Below, piece by piece: positions 54,366 through 64,000 of a DNA stretch of 64,000 nucleotides. Under the pieces are notes generated by a model. It worked only from the letters and a program-made list of their open reading frames with translations. It made no database searches and was not told the origin of the DNA. Numbering within the stretch: position 1 is the stretch's first letter; every line of letters begins with the position of its first letter. Source of the stretch: Paralichthys olivaceus (lineage: Eukaryota > Chordata > Actinopteri > Pleuronectiformes > Paralichthyidae); the NCBI RefSeq assembly GCF_024713975.1, contig NC_091094.1, forward strand, positions 12,447,001-12,511,000, written 5' to 3'. A program made the translations under genes and the position numbers.

Positions 54366-57300
54366 TCAGCAACATCCTGATCTTGTTCTCTGCGGGGGCT
54401 TAATGTGTAACTCCACGGTTTGCTCACTTGTGTCATGTTTTTCACTCAACATCCTGCAACAACACAACAAGAGCAACACGATCAGCTGATATTGTGACAT
54501 TACAGCACAAATCATTCAGGTGAGATGAGACATTACAATAAATATGAATACTGTTAAATGTGTTAATTACCTGGCGACAGTTTCCAAAGAGTGAATCACA
54601 TTTTCACCTGTGGCAGCGCTACACTCCATGAATTCAAAGTTGTACTCCTGTGGAGGAACACGGCCACTTTTAGCATTACAACAATTTACAAACACTGTGT
54701 CGTCATCTGAAATTGTGAGAGGATGTAACGCCACAGATCCAAACCTTAGCGAGGATTTCTCCCTCCTCAGTTTTAACCTTCCGCTCTCCACAATCACTCT
54801 TATTCCCAAGAAGTAAAATGGTCACGTCTCCTGTTGCACCTTCCTGCAAAATATGGAATAGTTTGATTATTGTTTGTGATTCTGACATTTAGGGATGTTC
54901 AGTAAATCCTAAAACATTTATTGCAAACAAGTGTTTTTTTTAGCATTGTTAGTAATAAATATATAATAATCACTTTTGTTTTATGTATTTCTAATAATTC
55001 TGAGCAGTTTCACAGGGAATAACTAGTGGATTTCGATGAAAACAAGTGGGCATATTAAGGGAACTAATATCATAGTGTGTGAAATCTGGTGCAACTTAAT
55101 TGATTTGAATGGCACTGCCCTCCACTTAGTGTCATTCTGGTGTTTCACTATAATTATATAATATAATTATAGTTCCTGTGCTCTTGTACATAATATAATT
55201 TATATTATGTACAAGAGCATGAGAATCCCTGAATTGCCTGATTTTATTAACTTCCTCGAAAACCATATAAAGCGTTTGGTACGTATCGTTTGAAAAAATC
55301 TGAATATATTATATATATTATTATTTTCATTATTTAAAAAAGGAGTCAGAGGAAGTAAATCCAATCAGGTGCAGGGAATGTGTTGCTTCCAGTAAAATGC
55401 CTGTGTTCATTCACAATTGTCCATTCCCACTGTCGGTTTCACATTCCAACATTGACGGACCCCTGGTATGCACAGTACCTGGATGCAGTTTGCCCAGTAG
55501 CTGATGGCAGAGAAGCTCTGAGAAGACGTGATGTCGTACATCAAGAGAAACGCCTGCGCTTTATGAAAAACCTGCCTGGTGATGCTGTGAAACCTGTTAA
55601 GACAGAAAACAAAACAATCTGAGACGATCCAAACAGAGATAAGACATCCTGTTTAAACCAGGGGGAGGCCACCAACCTCACTTAAAATGCTTTTCTTCAC
55701 ATTCTCTAGTGAAAGTTATGCTGTGGGAGACAATATTTCGTAACTGAACAGTCCTGTAGTGAAGGGTAAGTTTCCACCAATACACTGGTTAGTGGAGTTT
55801 TCTGAGAATTTGCTAAAGGTTTTTTCAAGAGACTTTATTTTTGATGTTTTTTCCAGGAAAGAGCAACTCTCATGTAAAGACAGTGATTGTCTCTGGTTAA
55901 GTAAATCTTACATAGACATCACCTTCATAATTATATTACAAAGTTGGTGTAAACAGAGTTGGGGGTAAATATGTTAATCTGAATCCCTATCAAATGAGTG
56001 GGTTCATTAAAGGCTGTTAATTCAACTATGCTCATCTAATACGTCCTCCAAACTGTGTCCACACCACATGTCTGTAGCATGTGGAGTGAACATGTGCACA
56101 TGTACAAGCTCTGTGTGCGCACCGCTCCGTGTCTCGAGGGCAAGAAATGTTTTCATTCCAGAATGCAAAACATTGTCGAGATGGGTCAAACCAGTTCTGT
56201 AACAGGTTACAATTTGGCGTCAAAGTGAATCCTGGACATACTAAGGCTGTTTTGGGCACATTGTGTTGGACATTGTGTGGGACATTGTGTGGGACATTGT
56301 GTGGCCTGTGTGAACAGTATCTGCAGCTTGTTACAATAACACGTACATGATGTATTCACATGTGCTCAGCAGAAGTCTTGGCTGACACTTTGCTGAGAGC
56401 CCGGGATGCTCCCGTCACATTTTGTTTCGGGAAAGCCCTTTGGAACAGAGACAACCTGTCCTGAGCCTAAGTCCACTCACCCTTCCTGGATATAAAAGAC
56501 TCATGGTGCTTGTGGCAGAGGATTTAGGACATTATAAAGCATAAAATAACACCCTGTACCCTTCACGGTGATGCCTCCTTCTACTAAATGACCTTCCCTC
56601 CAACCAACAACCAGATCATGAGCCTCTTCACAACAGACATCAGGAGTAAACCCACGTAAAGCTGCAGGACCTGAAAGTACCTGTACGAATGTTCAGACTG
56701 ATTGGTCCTCATGTCCTCATGTCCTCATGTCCTCATAGACACCTTCCAGCTTTCCCTCCGGTCATTAGGATTGTGGGCATTGTACACGCTTTCTTTCACT
56801 ACAAGTAATACTTCTCCTCCATGCACTCAGGTATTAGGTAACATTGTGCCAGAAATCTCCTCTCCGCTTAATGACATTGCGAACAACTATGTGCTTTAAG
56901 ATCACCACCGGAAAAGGGGGAAAAATCCTTTTTGCAGAATGAACTTTTAAAGATCATGTGAATCTAAATCATAAAATCTAAAACCTGTATTCTCAAGGTG
57001 GGGGGCCTTTAATTAACGTGTTTGATCGAAACCCCAATAGTTGGTATGAGACTCTCTGTGTTGTGCTGTAAAATCAAACAGGATACTCACCTCTCCTGAC
57101 CCGCTGTGTCCCATAACTGCAGCACCACAGGCTTTCCATCCACAACCACAGTCCACATGCAGTAATCTAGGCCTATAAAATATGCTTTCTGTTAATTATT
57201 CTTCATATTTACCTTCATTTATGAGAATACAGATCCCAAGAGGGGACTTTGAAAGCCTCTCAATTACAGAACACCTCAAAAACTGAAATTTTTCACACAT

Positions 57301-60300
57301 GTAGTCATTTCAATGTGTTTTACTTGTTGTTGCTCTGATGTGTCTGATGTTGTTCGTGTTGGTATTTGTTGTGGTTTTGTGATTTTGTATTGTTCTGTGT
57401 AGTTTGTGTTTCATCAACACTCACTCATGCTTTCCTTCTATAATTATCTTTTTTTTTTTACCCAATGGGAATCAATAAAGGATATCATCTTATTTTGTCT
57501 GGTCTTGAATTTTATCACCTAACACAATTCAGTAAAAATCAGGGTCTTACCGACAGAGGCGGGTACATCGTAAGAAAACTTCCCACTGCGGGCTCTTTTC
57601 ATGAGGGAGGTCTTGCCTACGCTGCTGTTGCCAACCAGCAGCACATTATAACTTTTCGATCTGATGTCTGCTCCTCTGGAATCACCTGCTGGAGGGAAAA
57701 CAGAAACGCTTACATCATATACACATGTTTGTATTTTCTACTGTGACGGCTGACTTCAGGGTGGAAGTCCTACTGTTCAATTTACCCAAAGAAAACGTAT
57801 TTTGCCCCTCTTGTCTCGGGGGGAATTCAGTATAGTGCTGTTGAACTGGTTTCTCTCTCTCAGGTGCCTTCCCACTGTGGAACAGACAAAGTGTTATATA
57901 ACATAATAAGCACAACAAATGAGAGACATTCTGCTGCAGGGTTTAGATCAGTCATCACTATTTTGAATGCAGAACTGTGCGGTTATAACCAAAAGGTTGT
58001 ATTTGAATTTAAGAGAAAAACAAATTTGAAAAGAAAAATAACAGTGCAATGTAAAACCAACAATGCAACTGACCTGCTGGCAAAACAAACGTGTGTATGT
58101 AATGTTAGCACCAAATCCTGTTTGCACTTTTAACAGGATTAGTGTAGACCAAAGGCTCGCATGAGTCAGAGGCTCGGCTTCTTTGATGAGTCAGACAGAT
58201 GAGTTGCAAAACATCGTTGACAGTTGAATAGATTCACTCAATAGTTTACGTGTGGATGTTTAGTCTTTGTTTTGATTGCTAACGCCAATCAGTCAAAGGG
58301 AGAATGAATGCACAGCACTCGGTGCAGTATTACATTTATCAAGTTAGATTAGTCGGCAGTCTGACAAATGTTGTTGAACTGCCAATAAAGAGGAAGTTGA
58401 GTGTTTGCCTCAGAATGTAATGGCTCGAATTGTTAAGTGAAAGCAGAATATGCAAACAGAATTCACACACTTAATAGTTTAGTGGCTGAAGGTTAATGTA
58501 TAGTCCATATCTGTATGTGTAACAAGGCAGAAAACATGATTCAATAGAGTTGTCATAGATTTATATTTCTTCTGATCTGGTTCATGCTGATACGATCGAT
58601 GGTAACAGGCAGATCAACACAAAGCCACTGAAGGCGTTAAACAGGTCCTGGAGGCTGCAGTGTTTGTTTTGCATCTCTGTTGAACTGTGGTGTTGGTTTT
58701 ACCTCAACGGCCTTGAGAGCTCTGGTGCGTTTGAGACGCTGATGTTGGATGATAATGTTTTGACACTTTCTTCAACCTGCAGACAATAAAAAAAACAGTC
58801 AAGAGATGATTCTGCATATTTCATCTTGAATCAGACATATAAAGTAACGCCACCAAAATATGATGTTTTATGGAAAGTAAAAGCAGCAGGACTTATAAGA
58901 GTGTGCTCTGGAGCAAAAACGATATTTGCATAAGGAGTTTACCCATTTAGTTTCTGCTTTGCATAATATCCTCTCCGATCAGAGCACATACCTTCTTAAC
59001 AGGCTGTCGTTTAAGTTGTTGTGCAACTGTATCTGAACGCTTGAAAGAAAATACCAATGCAGACATCAAGAAAGAACAGATACAAGCTTATGTTCTCGAG
59101 AAAACAGATACATGTTTATGTTCTCGAGAAAACAGATACATGTTTATGTTCTCCTTTTCACTACGTGAAACTTGTAGTGTTGACCACATGTTCCTCATTT
59201 TGGCTCATTGTGTCATTTTGTTATTTTTGTAACAGTTGCAAGGGTTTTTATGCAAATAGGAAGCTGAGCACAACACAGACATTCTGCTGCTACTGTCACT
59301 AATAATAGATACGAGTTCACTGCAGACGGAGCACAGTATTAAACTTTGTACAATTTTGTTGACTTTTCAAATTCCGTTGTGTCATGCCATCAGTTTGTAT
59401 CATTATATTGTGTGAATTAAACTGACAGGTTCATTAAAATGAAGTTTAAAGGCCTGCGCTTAATCTGCAACAATACATGAAATGCAGCAGAGGGGTGATG
59501 CTAACTTTTTAATGTTGTAATAAAGCACTTTCATAACAAAGTAATAATTCAACCACGTTAAGTAAAAACACAACAGTAGAATCACACATATCAAATATTC
59601 CCAATATTTAAGTTTGCTGCTCACCTCTGATTTTTCGTTCAGGCCCAAAGACTCTTCTCTTTCTTCTTGACTTGTCTTGTTGACACTTTCATCAGTCAGA
59701 CTTCTCACGTCTCTCTCTTTTTGTGCACTGATCATTCTGTCTTCATTCTTTTGATGTCCATGTGACTTCCGGTGAGACCCCATCTTTCTTCTTCTGCCTC
59801 CAGCTGCTGATTCTGACATAACATCTTGTTTATGAGGAGGGGACAGTTTTGCAGGGAGGTAATCTGGAGTTAGATGATGCTCTGTTTCTGCTTGCTGGCT
59901 GAGAGAATCAGGATTTTCTTCGACTGTTTGCTGAGCTAGAGGTTTCAACTGAAATTCACCAGTGTGACTCAATTCCACTGTTTCAAACATCTTCTCTTCC
60001 CTTTGCTCAGAGTCACTGTTTTCCTGCTGATCGATAATCGGTGGCTCTTTTTCAACGATTACTGAGACACTTTCAACATTAAAATCCTCTTTATCCTCCT
60101 CCTGCTTTTGATGTGAGTTTTCCAGTTTGTGTCGAGATCCAAGGTTCCTGCGAGTGGAGCCCATTTTTCTTCGCCTGTTGGGCGAACTGACGTGTGGACT
60201 TGAATCCTTCATCTCAAAGTTTGTTTTGTGAGCCTCTTCAGGAGCGTTGTTTGGTTCTTGTATGACAGATTCTTCCATCTCCTGATCTGCCACAAGAACA

Positions 60301-63300
60301 CTTGGTGCCTCTACTGATTCTAAGGGTTGGTCCTGTATTAGGCCTACTTTAATCCCTTCTGGACTTTGCTTTTCATTTTGTGTAGCCTCTATAACACCAG
60401 AGTCTCCTACAGCTGATTTAATTTTCTTAATGAGTTTTAAATCTGGGCTGGTTTGCTCTTTCAATTCTTCCTGACTTATTGTTCCTGTTGCTATTGGCAT
60501 TTTTTCTTTTTCAGAAACCTCATCACTCTGAGTATTTTCTACAACTTCCTCTTCTGGTTCAGTGATCTCTGGGCCGTGCCGTCTTCCTTTAAGTCTTCGG
60601 CTTGACCCAAGTTTTCTTCTGTTCCCTGTGAGTTTGAAGTCCGAGTGAGTTTCCTCGTTGATGCTCACAGAATTATCCACAGGTTGTGAATCCAAATGCA
60701 ACTTGGTTTCTGATTCCAGAGTTTGCAAACAGGGTTTTGTTTCCTCAACTGGGGAGTTATCGATGTGATGCATTGTTTGCATGTGTATCAGCTTTACCTC
60801 CTCTTCATGCACGTCTCTTGCACTTCTGTCCTCAAATGAGCTGAAATATTCACTTTGACCCTCCGTTGTAGACACCTCCTCTTTTGGTGATGAAACTGCT
60901 GCTTGCTCGTCTCCATATTTAGGCTCTGTATGTCCTCTGTATTCACTTTTCTCTGTGGTTATCTCTGGTTTGTCAGAGGACTCTACACTGTCTGGTTTTA
61001 CATGTGTCTGCTTTTGATGTGAGTTTTCCAGTTTGTGTCGTGATCCAAGGTTTCTGCGAGTGGAGCCCATTTTTCTTCGCCTGTTGGGCGAACTGACGTG
61101 TGGACTTGAATCCCTCATCTCAAAGTTTGTTTTGTGAGCCTCTTCAGGAGCGTTGTTTGGCTCTTGTATGACAGATTCTTCCATCTCCTGATCTGCCACA
61201 AGAACACTTGGTGCCTCTATTGATTCTAAGGGTTGGTCCTGTATTAGGCCTACTTTAATCCCTTCTGGACTTTGCTTTTCATTTTGTGTAGCCTCTATAA
61301 CACCAGAGTCAGTGTTGATAGCGTCCTCATCCATGTGTCTTGTTTCTGTTTTATTGTTGTTGTCCTTTTGTCCTCGGCTGTTAGATGTACCTGCTGATGT
61401 AGAAATCCCACTTTTCTCATCTGGCTTGGCTCTGCTGTTTTCCTCATGACCCATTTCCAACGCTTCCATTTTATTTTGTGCAACAGAAAAAGGTTCATCG
61501 TGTGTGACTTCAATTAAAGTGTTTGTTTCTTCAGCTGAAAGGTCTTTATTGGCAGGATCTTTGAGTTCATCTTCCACGTCAACCTCTCCAGACCCGTGTG
61601 CACCCATTAAACTTTCTGCTTCTATTACCACAGCATCTACCTCAGATTCATTCACGTTAGTTGTCTGTTGGACACAGATTTCTTGTCCCACTGAGTCTTT
61701 GTCACAAGGTAAAGATTCTGTTTTGTGGATCTGAGAAGTTTCTTCTTGGTCGAGTCCGTCAGATGGGACGGATTGGGTGCTGACATTGCCCTCATGATTT
61801 GAGATATTTTGTGAGTCTGGATTATCTTTCCAAACTGAGGCTTCAACAGATTGTATCAATTCCATTTTAACTACATCATAAACTGGAAGTGGAGTTAAAT
61901 ACTCTGGCTCTTTCATGAATTTCTTTTCGGCCTCATTGACTTCGTCGGTAGATTCAAGAATGTCTGTTGTCACTGTTGTTCTGTTGTCTGTCAAATTCTG
62001 TAACAGCTTTGTACCTTCATCTGGCATTTGTTCTGTGTTTTCCTGCTCCTCTACAGCTGATTTAATTTTCTTAATGAGTTTTAAATCTGGGCTGGTTTGC
62101 TCTTTCAATTCTTCCTGACTTATTGTTCCTGTTGCTATTGGCATTTTTTCTTTTTCAGAAACCTCATCACTCTGAGTATTTTCTACAACTTCCTCTTCTG
62201 GTTCAGTGATCTCTGGGCCGTGCCGTCTTCCTTTAAGTCTTCGGCTTGACCCAAGTTTTCTTCTGTTCCCTGTGAGTTTGAAGTCCGAGTGAGTTTCCTC
62301 GTTGATGCTCACAGAATTATCCACAGGTTGTGAATCCAAATGCAACTTGGTTTCTGATTCCAGAGTTTGCAAACAGGGTTTTGTTTCCTCAACTGGGGAG
62401 TTATCGATGTGATGCATTGTTTGCATGTGTATCAGCTTTACCTCCTCTTCATGCACGTCTCTTGCACTTCTGTCCTCAAATGAGCTGAAATATTCACTTT
62501 GACCCTCCGTTGTAGACACCTCCTCTTTTGGTGATGAAACTGCTGCTTGCTCGTCTCCATATTTAGGCTCTGTATGTCCTCTGTATTCACTTTTCTCTGT
62601 GGTTATCTCTGGTTTGTCAGAGGACTCTACACTGTCTGGTTTTACATGTGTCTGCTTTTGATGTGAGTTTTCCAGTTTGTGTCGTGATCCAAGGTTTCTG
62701 CGAGTGGAGCCCATTTTTCTTCGCCTGTTGGGCGAACTGACGTGTGGACTTGAATCCCTCATCTCAAAGTTTGTTTTGTGAGCCTCTTCAGGAGCGTTGT
62801 TTGGTTCTTGTATGACAGATTCTTCCATCTCCTGATCTGCCACAAGAACACTTGGTGCCTCTATTGATTCTAAGGGTTGGTCCTGTATTAGGCCTACTTT
62901 AATCCCTTCTGGACTTTGCTTTTCATTTTGTGTAGCCTCTATAACACCAGAGTCAGTGTTGATAGCGTCCTCATCCATGTGTCTTGTTTCTGTTTTATTG
63001 TTGTTGTCCTTTTGTCCTCGGCTGTTAGATGTACCTGCTGATGTAGAAATCCCACTTTTCTCATCTGGCTTGGCTCTGCTGTTTTCCTCATGACCCATTT
63101 CCAACGCTTCCATTTTATTTTGTGCAACAGAAAAAGGTTCATCGTGTGTGACTTCAATTAAAGTGTTTGTTTCTTCAGCTGAAAGGTCTTTATTGGCAGG
63201 ATCTTTGAGTTCATCTTCCACGTCAACCTCTCCAGACCCGTGTGCACCCATTAAACTTTCTGCTTCTATTACCACAACATCTACCTCAGATTCATTCACG

Positions 63301-64000
63301 TTAGTTGTCTGTTGGACACAGATTTCTTGTCCCACTGAGTCTTTGTCACAAGGTAAAGATTCTGTTTTGTGGATCTGAGAAGTTTCTTCTTGGTCGAGTC
63401 CGTCAGATGGGACGGATTGGGTGCTGACATTGCCCTCATGATTTGAGATATTTTGTGAGTCTGGATTATCTTTCCAAACTGAGGCTTCAACAGATTGTAT
63501 CAATTCCATTTTAACTACATCATAAACTGGAAGTGGAGTTAAATACTCTGGCTCTTTCATGAATTTCTTTTCGGCCTCATTGACTTCGTCGGTAGATTCA
63601 AGAATGTCTGTTGTCACTGTTGTTCTGTTGTCTGTCAAATTCTGTAACAGCTTTGTACCTTCATCTGGCATTTGTTCTGTGTTTTCCTGCTCCTCTACAG
63701 CTGATTTAATTTTCTTAATGAGTTTTAAATCTGGGCTGGTTTGCTCTTTCAATTCTTCCTGACTTATTGTTCCTGTTGCTATTGGCATTTTTTCTTTTTC
63801 AGAAACCTCATCACTCTGAGTATTTTCTACAACTTCCTCTTCTGGTTCAGTGATCTCTGGGCCGTGCCGTCTTCCTTTAAGTCTTCGGCTTGACCCAAGT
63901 TTTCTTCTGTTCCCTGTGAGTTTGAAGTCCGAGTGAGTTTCCTCGTTGATGCTCACAGAATTATCCACAGGTTGTGAATCCAAATGCAACTTGGTTTCTG
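54366..64000 (-). CDS. rab44: Large Rab GTPase resembling RAB44, with repetitive N-terminal region (5' end outside window)
   Basis: Exons in transcript order: >64000-59625, 58776-58703, 57874-57786, 57688-57551, 57172-57091, 55593-55479, 54843-54745, 54647-54571, 54453-54366; all phases agree. The long exon is an acidic, probably disordered region with a 548-residue tandem repeat. The C-terminal Rab domain has GNSSVGKTS (P-loop), PASVGLDY (switch I; Ser where Rabs usually have Thr), WDTAGQE (G3), GNKSD (G4), ECSAATGEN (G5). It ends RTRSGCC, a di-cysteine geranylgeranylation signal. The Rab domain is closest to human RAB44 (RHSMTRQ-like [31 protein letters not shown]). RAB44 and CRACR2A are large Rabs in vesicle traffic of immune and secretory cells. 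EF-hands would lie beyond the right edge. After residue KSE the open frame runs into intron; GAG|GTGAGC at 59625 is the donor. Confidence 0.85.
55020..55150. repeat. Dispersed repeat, copy 3, rab44 intron
   Basis: It contains CACAGGGAATAACTAGTGG, TATTAAGGGAACTAATATC and GTGTCATTCTGGTG, matching the downstream part of the copy at 41985-42340. Confidence 0.45.
55179..55219. repeat. 41-bp perfect palindrome
   Basis: Two 20-bp arms (TGCTCTTGTACATAATATAA and its reverse complement) separated by one base, in a rab44 intron. Confidence 0.9.
56268..56303. repeat. 12-bp tandem repeat, 3 copies
   Basis: GGACATTGTGTG in tandem in a rab44 intron. A nine-base CATGTCCTC triplet lies nearby at about 56708-56738. 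Confidence 0.8.
57300..57488 (+). repeat. Retroposon 3'-tail fragment in rab44 intron
   Basis: A T-rich stretch, then ACCCAATGGGAATCAATAAA and GGATATCATCTTATTTT, is the usual fish LINE 3' end. The left border is uncertain. Confidence 0.4.
59075..59155. repeat. 28-bp tandem repeat, 3 copies
   Basis: Unit AACAGATACATGTTTATGTT followed by CTCGAGAA, repeated at 59075, 59103 and 59131 in a rab44 intron. Confidence 0.9.
60106..61011 (-). repeat. rab44: rab44 coding repeat, copy C (906 bp, lacks 738 bp)
   Basis: The same unit is shorter by 738 bp (246 codons, frame kept). The junction is at 60404-60411, where KIKSAV passes directly to [10 protein letters not shown]. The 300 bp nearest the C-terminal edge differ from copy B at several bases, making C the most diverged copy. 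Confidence 0.9.
61012..62655 (-). repeat. rab44: rab44 coding repeat, full copy B (1644 bp, 548 codons)
   Basis: The minus-strand unit runs from THVKPDS to ENSHQKQ. Every position recurs 1644 bp to the right in copy A with almost no change: I noticed one Val/Ala difference (EVDV versus EVDA) and one silent C/T near 61160. Each unit carries the basic motifs RRKMGSTRR and RRKLGSSRR. Confidence 0.93.
62656..64000 (-). repeat. rab44: rab44 coding repeat, copy A (cut by window edge)
   Basis: 1345 bp of the 1644-bp unit are visible, in frame with copy B. The sequence is still repeat at base 64000, so more copies may follow. Confidence 0.93.

Follow-up and report, generated by a model that had tools for sequence, protein, structure and literature searches.

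How a Rab GTPase gene comes to carry a coding array of near-identical 548-residue units, and what such an arm might do, is the question raised by a locus on contig 2 of the genome assembly of the flounder Paralichthys olivaceus (588 Mb, 25 contigs). Rab GTPases are normally compact switches, to which the large Rabs described so far join a calcium sensor and a coiled coil. The window analysed here is a stretch of 64,000 nucleotides (bases 12447001-12511000 of the contig), to which the adjoining 26 kb of the same chromosome were added; positions above 64000 keep the window numbering, and the extended region is given as 1-90000. A preliminary description of the window had proposed a tandem repeat of this kind inside a Rab gene. 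We consider it likely that the locus is a rab44-type gene that has grown by in-frame duplications, with a homogenised youngest layer, and that its arm stands before an intact Rab domain.

Self-comparison of the window and its extension revealed a tandem period of 1644 bp (548 codons): positions 62051-64000 align to 60407-62356 without gaps and mismatch at only 2 of 1950 bp (E 0.0). The array had been expected to run off the window, and it does, extending to 65960 for a length of ~5.9 kb. As assembled, it holds three complete 1644-bp units (A, B and C) on the minus strand within a single giant exon. These units vary at only two sites, one synonymous (GAG/GAA, Glu) and one Ala/Val: A and B differ at 2 positions, as the preliminary description had noticed, A and C at 1, and B and C at 1, so that the three are pairwise distinct at a difference of 0.06-0.12% (99.9% identity). 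Copy C had been thought more diverged, but the complete unit C is as similar as A and B are, and the diverged pieces proved to be partial copies at the two ends of the array. From N- to C-terminus the minus-strand layout reads b1 (65960-65339), units C, B and A (65338-60407), c4 (60404-60102) and then unique sequence, which moves the array edge from the 60106 given earlier to ~60102. Inside each complete unit the segment order is a-c-b. The terminal copy c4 consists of segment c only, segment a (~740 bp) being missing, and over its 303 bp it departs from the complete units at 4 or 5 positions. Over its last 382 bp, copy b1 matches copy b2 of the young array exactly, and the remaining 240 bp are diverged, with 21 bp of gaps; at the codon level, all 15 differing codons lie within the first 73 of the 200 aligned, an arrangement with a probability of ~3e-7 under an even spread.

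The exon that contains the array spans 68399-59625 on the minus strand, its 8,775 bp forming 2,925 codons that are all open. From 68417 onwards no stop interrupts the frame over 2,985 codons; the first ATG is at 68399, and the exon closes at a donor (GAG/GTGAGC) at 59625. An in-frame stop lies 18 bases before the ATG, so that coding may begin in the giant exon itself, unless that exon starts at an acceptor near the ATG. Joined to eight further exons, it yields a nine-exon model in which all 8 introns are GT-AG and the splice phases agree; its coding sequence of 9,537 bp predicts a product of 3,178 aa, 92% of which is arm. Exons 2 and 3, placed manually by means of acceptors and open frames, have splice sites and phase as their only evidence; an automated exon finder gave no pair of exons scoring above the threshold. 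The Rab domain and tail are encoded by six downstream exons on the minus strand. The Rab part matches Pfam Ras at E 1.9e-46 and 906 sequences of solved structures at E<=0.001 (best Rab26, E 1.5e-39), contains the P-loop, WDTAGQE, NKxD and SA motifs of the G domain, and ends in -RSGCC, a C-terminal cysteine pair for prenylation. Self-alignment, gene model and family match support the earlier description of a Rab with a very long, recently homogenised repeat arm. That description did not mention the older repeat layers, the basic motif in 12 copies or the lack of detected EF-hand and coiled-coil exons, all treated below.

Two local features of the gene model may be recorded here. In Rab exons 4-5 (57091-57688), with P-loop and WDTAGQE intact, switch I reads ASVGLDY and has a serine at the position where Rabs usually have threonine (T-x-G). 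The first intron holds a 28-bp unit repeated 2.8 times at 59075-59153 (96% matches).

The arm itself is acidic, its 2,925 residues including 614 acidic and 318 basic (K/R) ones for a net charge of -296. A charge-hydropathy plot puts it on the side of disordered proteins, and it is probably disordered. Against this background stands a recurrent basic motif, R[RK][KR]xGSx[RK], found in all 12 strongly basic clusters of the arm, where such a cluster is a 15-residue window holding 6 or more K/R. Once the extra units are taken out (segment b still being counted twice), the motif is in 7 of 7 clusters, whereas 2,000 composition shuffles averaged 1.36 clusters and never exceeded 5. Each complete 548-residue unit carries two motifs. 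All 12 copies also fit [RK]xxSx[RK], a protein-kinase-C-like pattern, and phosphorylation of the motif serine is possible. Motif patterns searched in six frames of the 90 kb gave 12 matches, all in the giant exon, and a genome-wide search with one motif instance placed all 7 matches at E<=10 in the same exon. The motif has no copy in 40 kb of the CRACR2A-like loci described below. Human RAB44 has a similar string, RKLGSNRRR, near its N-terminus, which serves as a lead and not as a test. Among six old lineages of the motif, the proportion of differing sites was 0.66 at synonymous (pS) and 0.21 at nonsynonymous (pN) positions. The sole Pfam row for the arm, PF12312, scored 19 bits, under the cut-off of 25, and was taken as chance.

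The strongest alternative, which we hold to be a serious though not the most probable account, is that the arm has no function of its own: a weakly constrained, repeat-prone exon would have grown by neutral unequal exchange, with the motifs as passengers. Two observations lean in this direction. The changes that separate b1 from b2, 13.8 over 476 nonsynonymous sites and 4.2 over 124 synonymous ones, are close to neutral; relaxed spacers would produce this on either account, and the spacers may indeed be under little constraint. In the 2,799 residues of the arm that were scanned, there was no Pfam match over the cut-off and no match to a solved structure at E<=0.1. Other observations limit the evidence from the motif. 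At a looser threshold the motif is in 7 of 10 basic clusters and absent from 3. Of the 12 exon instances, just 7 were picked up in the genome-wide motif search, which could also miss diverged copies elsewhere. The motif windows were picked by the motif pattern, so that the low pN is partly built in, although the synonymous figure is not. Against the neutral account, 2,925 codons have stayed open across several repeat ages, the basic motif has been kept in copies whose synonymous sites have diverged widely (in windows chosen by the motif), and every strongly basic cluster is this motif.

The relationships among segments indicate how the exon may have been built. Leaving aside b1 versus b2, different parts of the arm, among them its N-terminal 813 residues and its tail, can be aligned to each other at 18-43% identity over at least 50 residues (best E 9.8e-20). 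Since these older segments align and the motif lineages differ at 66% of synonymous sites, the exon has grown repeatedly. The diverged copies predate the uniform central units, because b1 and c4 carry differences of their own. Unequal crossing-over or gene conversion has probably homogenised the youngest array.

A simple fresh triplication, with two very recent copyings of a single unit and no homogenisation at all, seems unlikely to us. Only two differing sites among three units would fit such an event, but both end pieces indicate that more diverged copies already existed, and b1 switches abruptly from diverged to identical sequence (382 bp), as if a recombination tract had overwritten an older copy. 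Homogenisation explains these edges better. The preliminary description had left recent duplication, gene conversion and assembly error side by side; the edges favour homogenisation of an older array over one fresh duplication, and an error in copy number stays as a rival.

That rival, which we regard as somewhat less likely still, holds that three complete units is the wrong number, the true allele having fewer or more, because the assembler or an unpurged second haplotype led to a real unit being repeated or collapsed. The units are near-identical (2 sites in 1644 bp), and tandem repeats are described as a known source of assembly error (PMC6868369). Nevertheless, A, B and C are pairwise distinct, b1 and c4 have differences of their own and c4 a 740-bp deletion, so that the sequence is no single unit simply copied by the assembler; even with a single a-c-b unit, segments b and c would still occur twice. 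Ordinary long reads, moreover, exceed the length of the array. Differences of 0.06-0.12% lie within ordinary within-species variation, so the number of units may well vary among individuals.

By neighbourhood and elimination, we read the gene as rab44-type: its immediate upstream neighbour is SRSF3-like, and the genome has two CRACR2A-like genes at other loci. The upstream gene, on the same (minus) strand, has an exon encoding an RRM, confirmed by Pfam, and a tail, and is presumptively named SRSF3; ~1.2 kb (68399-69631) separates its coding end from the first ATG of the rab44-type gene. Human RAB44 also lies near SRSF3. The two CRACR2A-like loci, C7:6.54 Mb (6540001-6560000) and C23:6.285 Mb (6285001-6305000), match human CRACR2A at 52-71% in pieces and are in keeping with a duplicated teleost pair. 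A search for the CDI (p21) family gave 6 matches, none beside the rab44-type gene; because the sole match on contig 2 is at 17.85 Mb, the human order SRSF3-CDKN1A-RAB44 is kept only in part. Sequence similarity tells against a confident assignment: compared with provisional human sequences, the Rab domain is 45% identical to RAB44, 44% to CRACR2A and 40% to RASEF, and in an exon-by-exon search with human RAB44, 43 of 76 places outrank the best exon of this locus. That the gene is instead a third CRACR2A (RAB46) copy, as the nearly equal identities (44% vs 45%) and Rab-domain exon limits resembling CRACR2A by eye would allow, is improbable, given that the C7 and C23 loci match CRACR2A at 52-71% in pieces and carry its EF-hand and coiled-coil exons and that this gene adjoins the SRSF3-like one, much as human RAB44 lies near SRSF3.

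The EF-hand and coiled-coil part of large Rabs was sought by tblastn with provisional N-termini of human RAB44 and CRACR2A, both CRACR2A-like loci serving as positive control. EF-hand and coiled-coil exons were detected at both control loci (27 matches at E<=1 for two queries and two loci). In the extended region around the rab44-type gene the same searches returned neither EF-hand exons nor, by similarity to RAB44/CRACR2A, coiled-coil exons at E<=1. Pfam on selected upstream minus-strand frames gave RRM only. Within the 90 kb, the queries did give 9 weak matches at E 1-10, which speak against an absence of this part and which we take as chance. Three of them are one stretch in units A, B and C set against the coiled coil (34% of 35 aa, E 4.5); another is an EF-like stretch of 17 residues, IFNSQDINGDGARTPQE, at 49130-49080 on the minus strand (E 4.8 to CRACR2A), which lies outside the gene model and is probably fortuitous. 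A genome-wide EF-hand family search (89 matches; 150 of 317 candidates scored; none at C2:12.50-12.54 Mb) was discarded, as it also missed the CRACR2A-like EF-hand exons. On present sequence evidence, the usual large Rab architecture (RAB44/45/46) thus appears to be lacking within 90 kb, with neither an EF-hand nor a coiled-coil exon detected. Mouse Rab44 is described as having a natural short form without the EF-hand (PMC8303950), so a Rab44 protein without it can exist.

Under the history that we favour, the first recognised coding exon would have passed through successive in-frame internal duplications to give a 2,925-residue acidic, probably disordered arm placed before an intact, prenylatable Rab domain. 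The basic motif, in 12 copies, would have outlasted its diverging acidic spacers, and unequal crossing-over or gene conversion would recently have homogenised the three 548-residue units, leaving diverged remnants only at the edges. What the protein does can be addressed by way of its mammalian counterpart. Mammalian Rab44 is reported to promote mast-cell granule release (PMC7784977) and to bind p150Glued via a coiled-coil region in its middle, calcium sensitivity being conferred by the EF-hand part (PMC9586991); in a kidney single-cell meta-analysis, the section on neutrophils names zebrafish rab44 as one of the new marker genes (PMC11505477). We offer, as a speculative proposal, that the lipidated Rab end could anchor the protein on lysosome-related granules while the spaced, phosphorylatable basic motifs of the arm could make multivalent, weak and switchable contacts with cytoskeleton, motors or acidic membrane, standing in for the calcium-sensor/coiled-coil module of mammalian Rab44. 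Equally conjectural is the evolutionary counterpart of this proposal, that the EF-hand/coiled-coil half of Rab44 was lost in this lineage and replaced by a repeat-amplified acidic chain with 12 phosphorylatable basic beads of a single type. The valency of such a Rab would depend on how many units it has and might differ between individuals, and array length could then tune granule transport or release in fish immune cells.

Elsewhere in the window (1-52000), open-frame segments noted by eye resemble EIF4ENIF1 and a BTB/C2H2 zinc-finger protein on the plus strand, and an SLC2A sugar transporter and an HDHD3-like hydrolase on the minus strand; these names are presumptive and do not come from a family search. 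Coordinates of the features of the rab44-type gene and its array are collected in Table 1.

Table 1. Exons, repeat units and basic motifs of the rab44-type gene (window numbering).
Feature	Coordinates	Strand	Evidence
Exon 9, C-terminal tail, -RSGCC and stop	54366..54453	-	gene model
Exon 8, ECSAATG	54571..54647	-	gene model
Exon 7, GNKSD	54745..54843	-	motif and gene model
Exon 6, Rab domain	55479..55593	-	gene model
Exon 5, WDTAGQER	57091..57172	-	motif and gene model
Exon 4, P-loop GNSSVGKTS	57551..57688	-	motif and gene model
Exon 3, 89 bp, linker	57786..57874	-	splice sites and phase only
Exon 2, 74 bp, linker	58703..58776	-	splice sites and phase only
Giant exon (exon 1), part in window; continues to 68399	59625..64000	-	open frame and splice donor
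Basic motif RRKMGSHR(K), last of 12	59769..59792	-	pattern scan
Partial copy c4, terminal; segment c without the 740-bp segment a; 4-5 differences in 303 bp	60102..60404	-	self-alignment
Basic motif RRKMGSTR(R)	60150..60173	-	pattern scan
Repeat unit A, complete, 1644 bp	60407..62050	-	self-alignment
Basic motif RRKLGSSR(R)	60597..60620	-	pattern scan
Basic motif RRKMGSTR(R)	61056..61079	-	pattern scan
Repeat unit B, complete, 1644 bp, 2 differences to A	62051..63694	-	self-alignment
Basic motif RRKLGSSR(R)	62241..62264	-	pattern scan
Basic motif RRKMGSTR(R)	62700..62723	-	pattern scan
Unit C, part in window; runs on to 65338; 1 difference to A, 1 to B	63695..64000	-	self-alignment
Basic motif RRKLGSSR(R)	63885..63908	-	pattern scan
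Five further basic motifs, outside the window	64344-68201	-	pattern scan
Partial copy b1, older, outside the window	65339-65960	-	self-alignment

If the proposed account is true, a Rab with more than nine-tenths of its length in an acidic, self-duplicating arm that bears one basic motif many times over would add a third design to the compact and the calcium-sensing forms, and would provide a natural copy-number experiment on multivalency in granule traffic. The locus is also a clear case of a single exon in which a coding array combines old layers with freshly homogenised ones. Among the matches listed for Rab44, zebrafish rab44 and coding tandem repeats, none was a paper on such an arm in fish Rab44, which is not proof of absence, and a literature search with the motif strings matched only one paper, on plant antimicrobial peptides and unrelated by title.

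Among the closest known systems is mammalian Rab44, which likewise has a C-terminal Rab domain with a cysteine prenylation site, a long non-GTPase N-terminal part and, in human, SRSF3 as a neighbour. Mouse Rab44 has 924 or 725 aa, the long form being described with EF-hand, coiled-coil and proline-rich regions (PMC8303950); the flounder gene, in contrast, would encode 3,178 aa, 92% of it repeat arm, with no EF-hand or coiled-coil exon detected in 90 kb. CRACR2A/RAB46 belongs to the same large-Rab family and has similar Rab-domain exon limits by eye, but the flounder CRACR2A-like loci, unlike the rab44-type gene, have kept their EF-hand and coiled-coil exons and have no basic motif in 40 kb. 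For the array, the likeness is to filaggrin (FLG), in which complete tandem units also follow one another in frame within one exon, although the host gene is different and so, by its description, is the protein. Primate filaggrin repeats are highly diverse and fit a birth-and-death process, whereas the flounder units are nearly identical.

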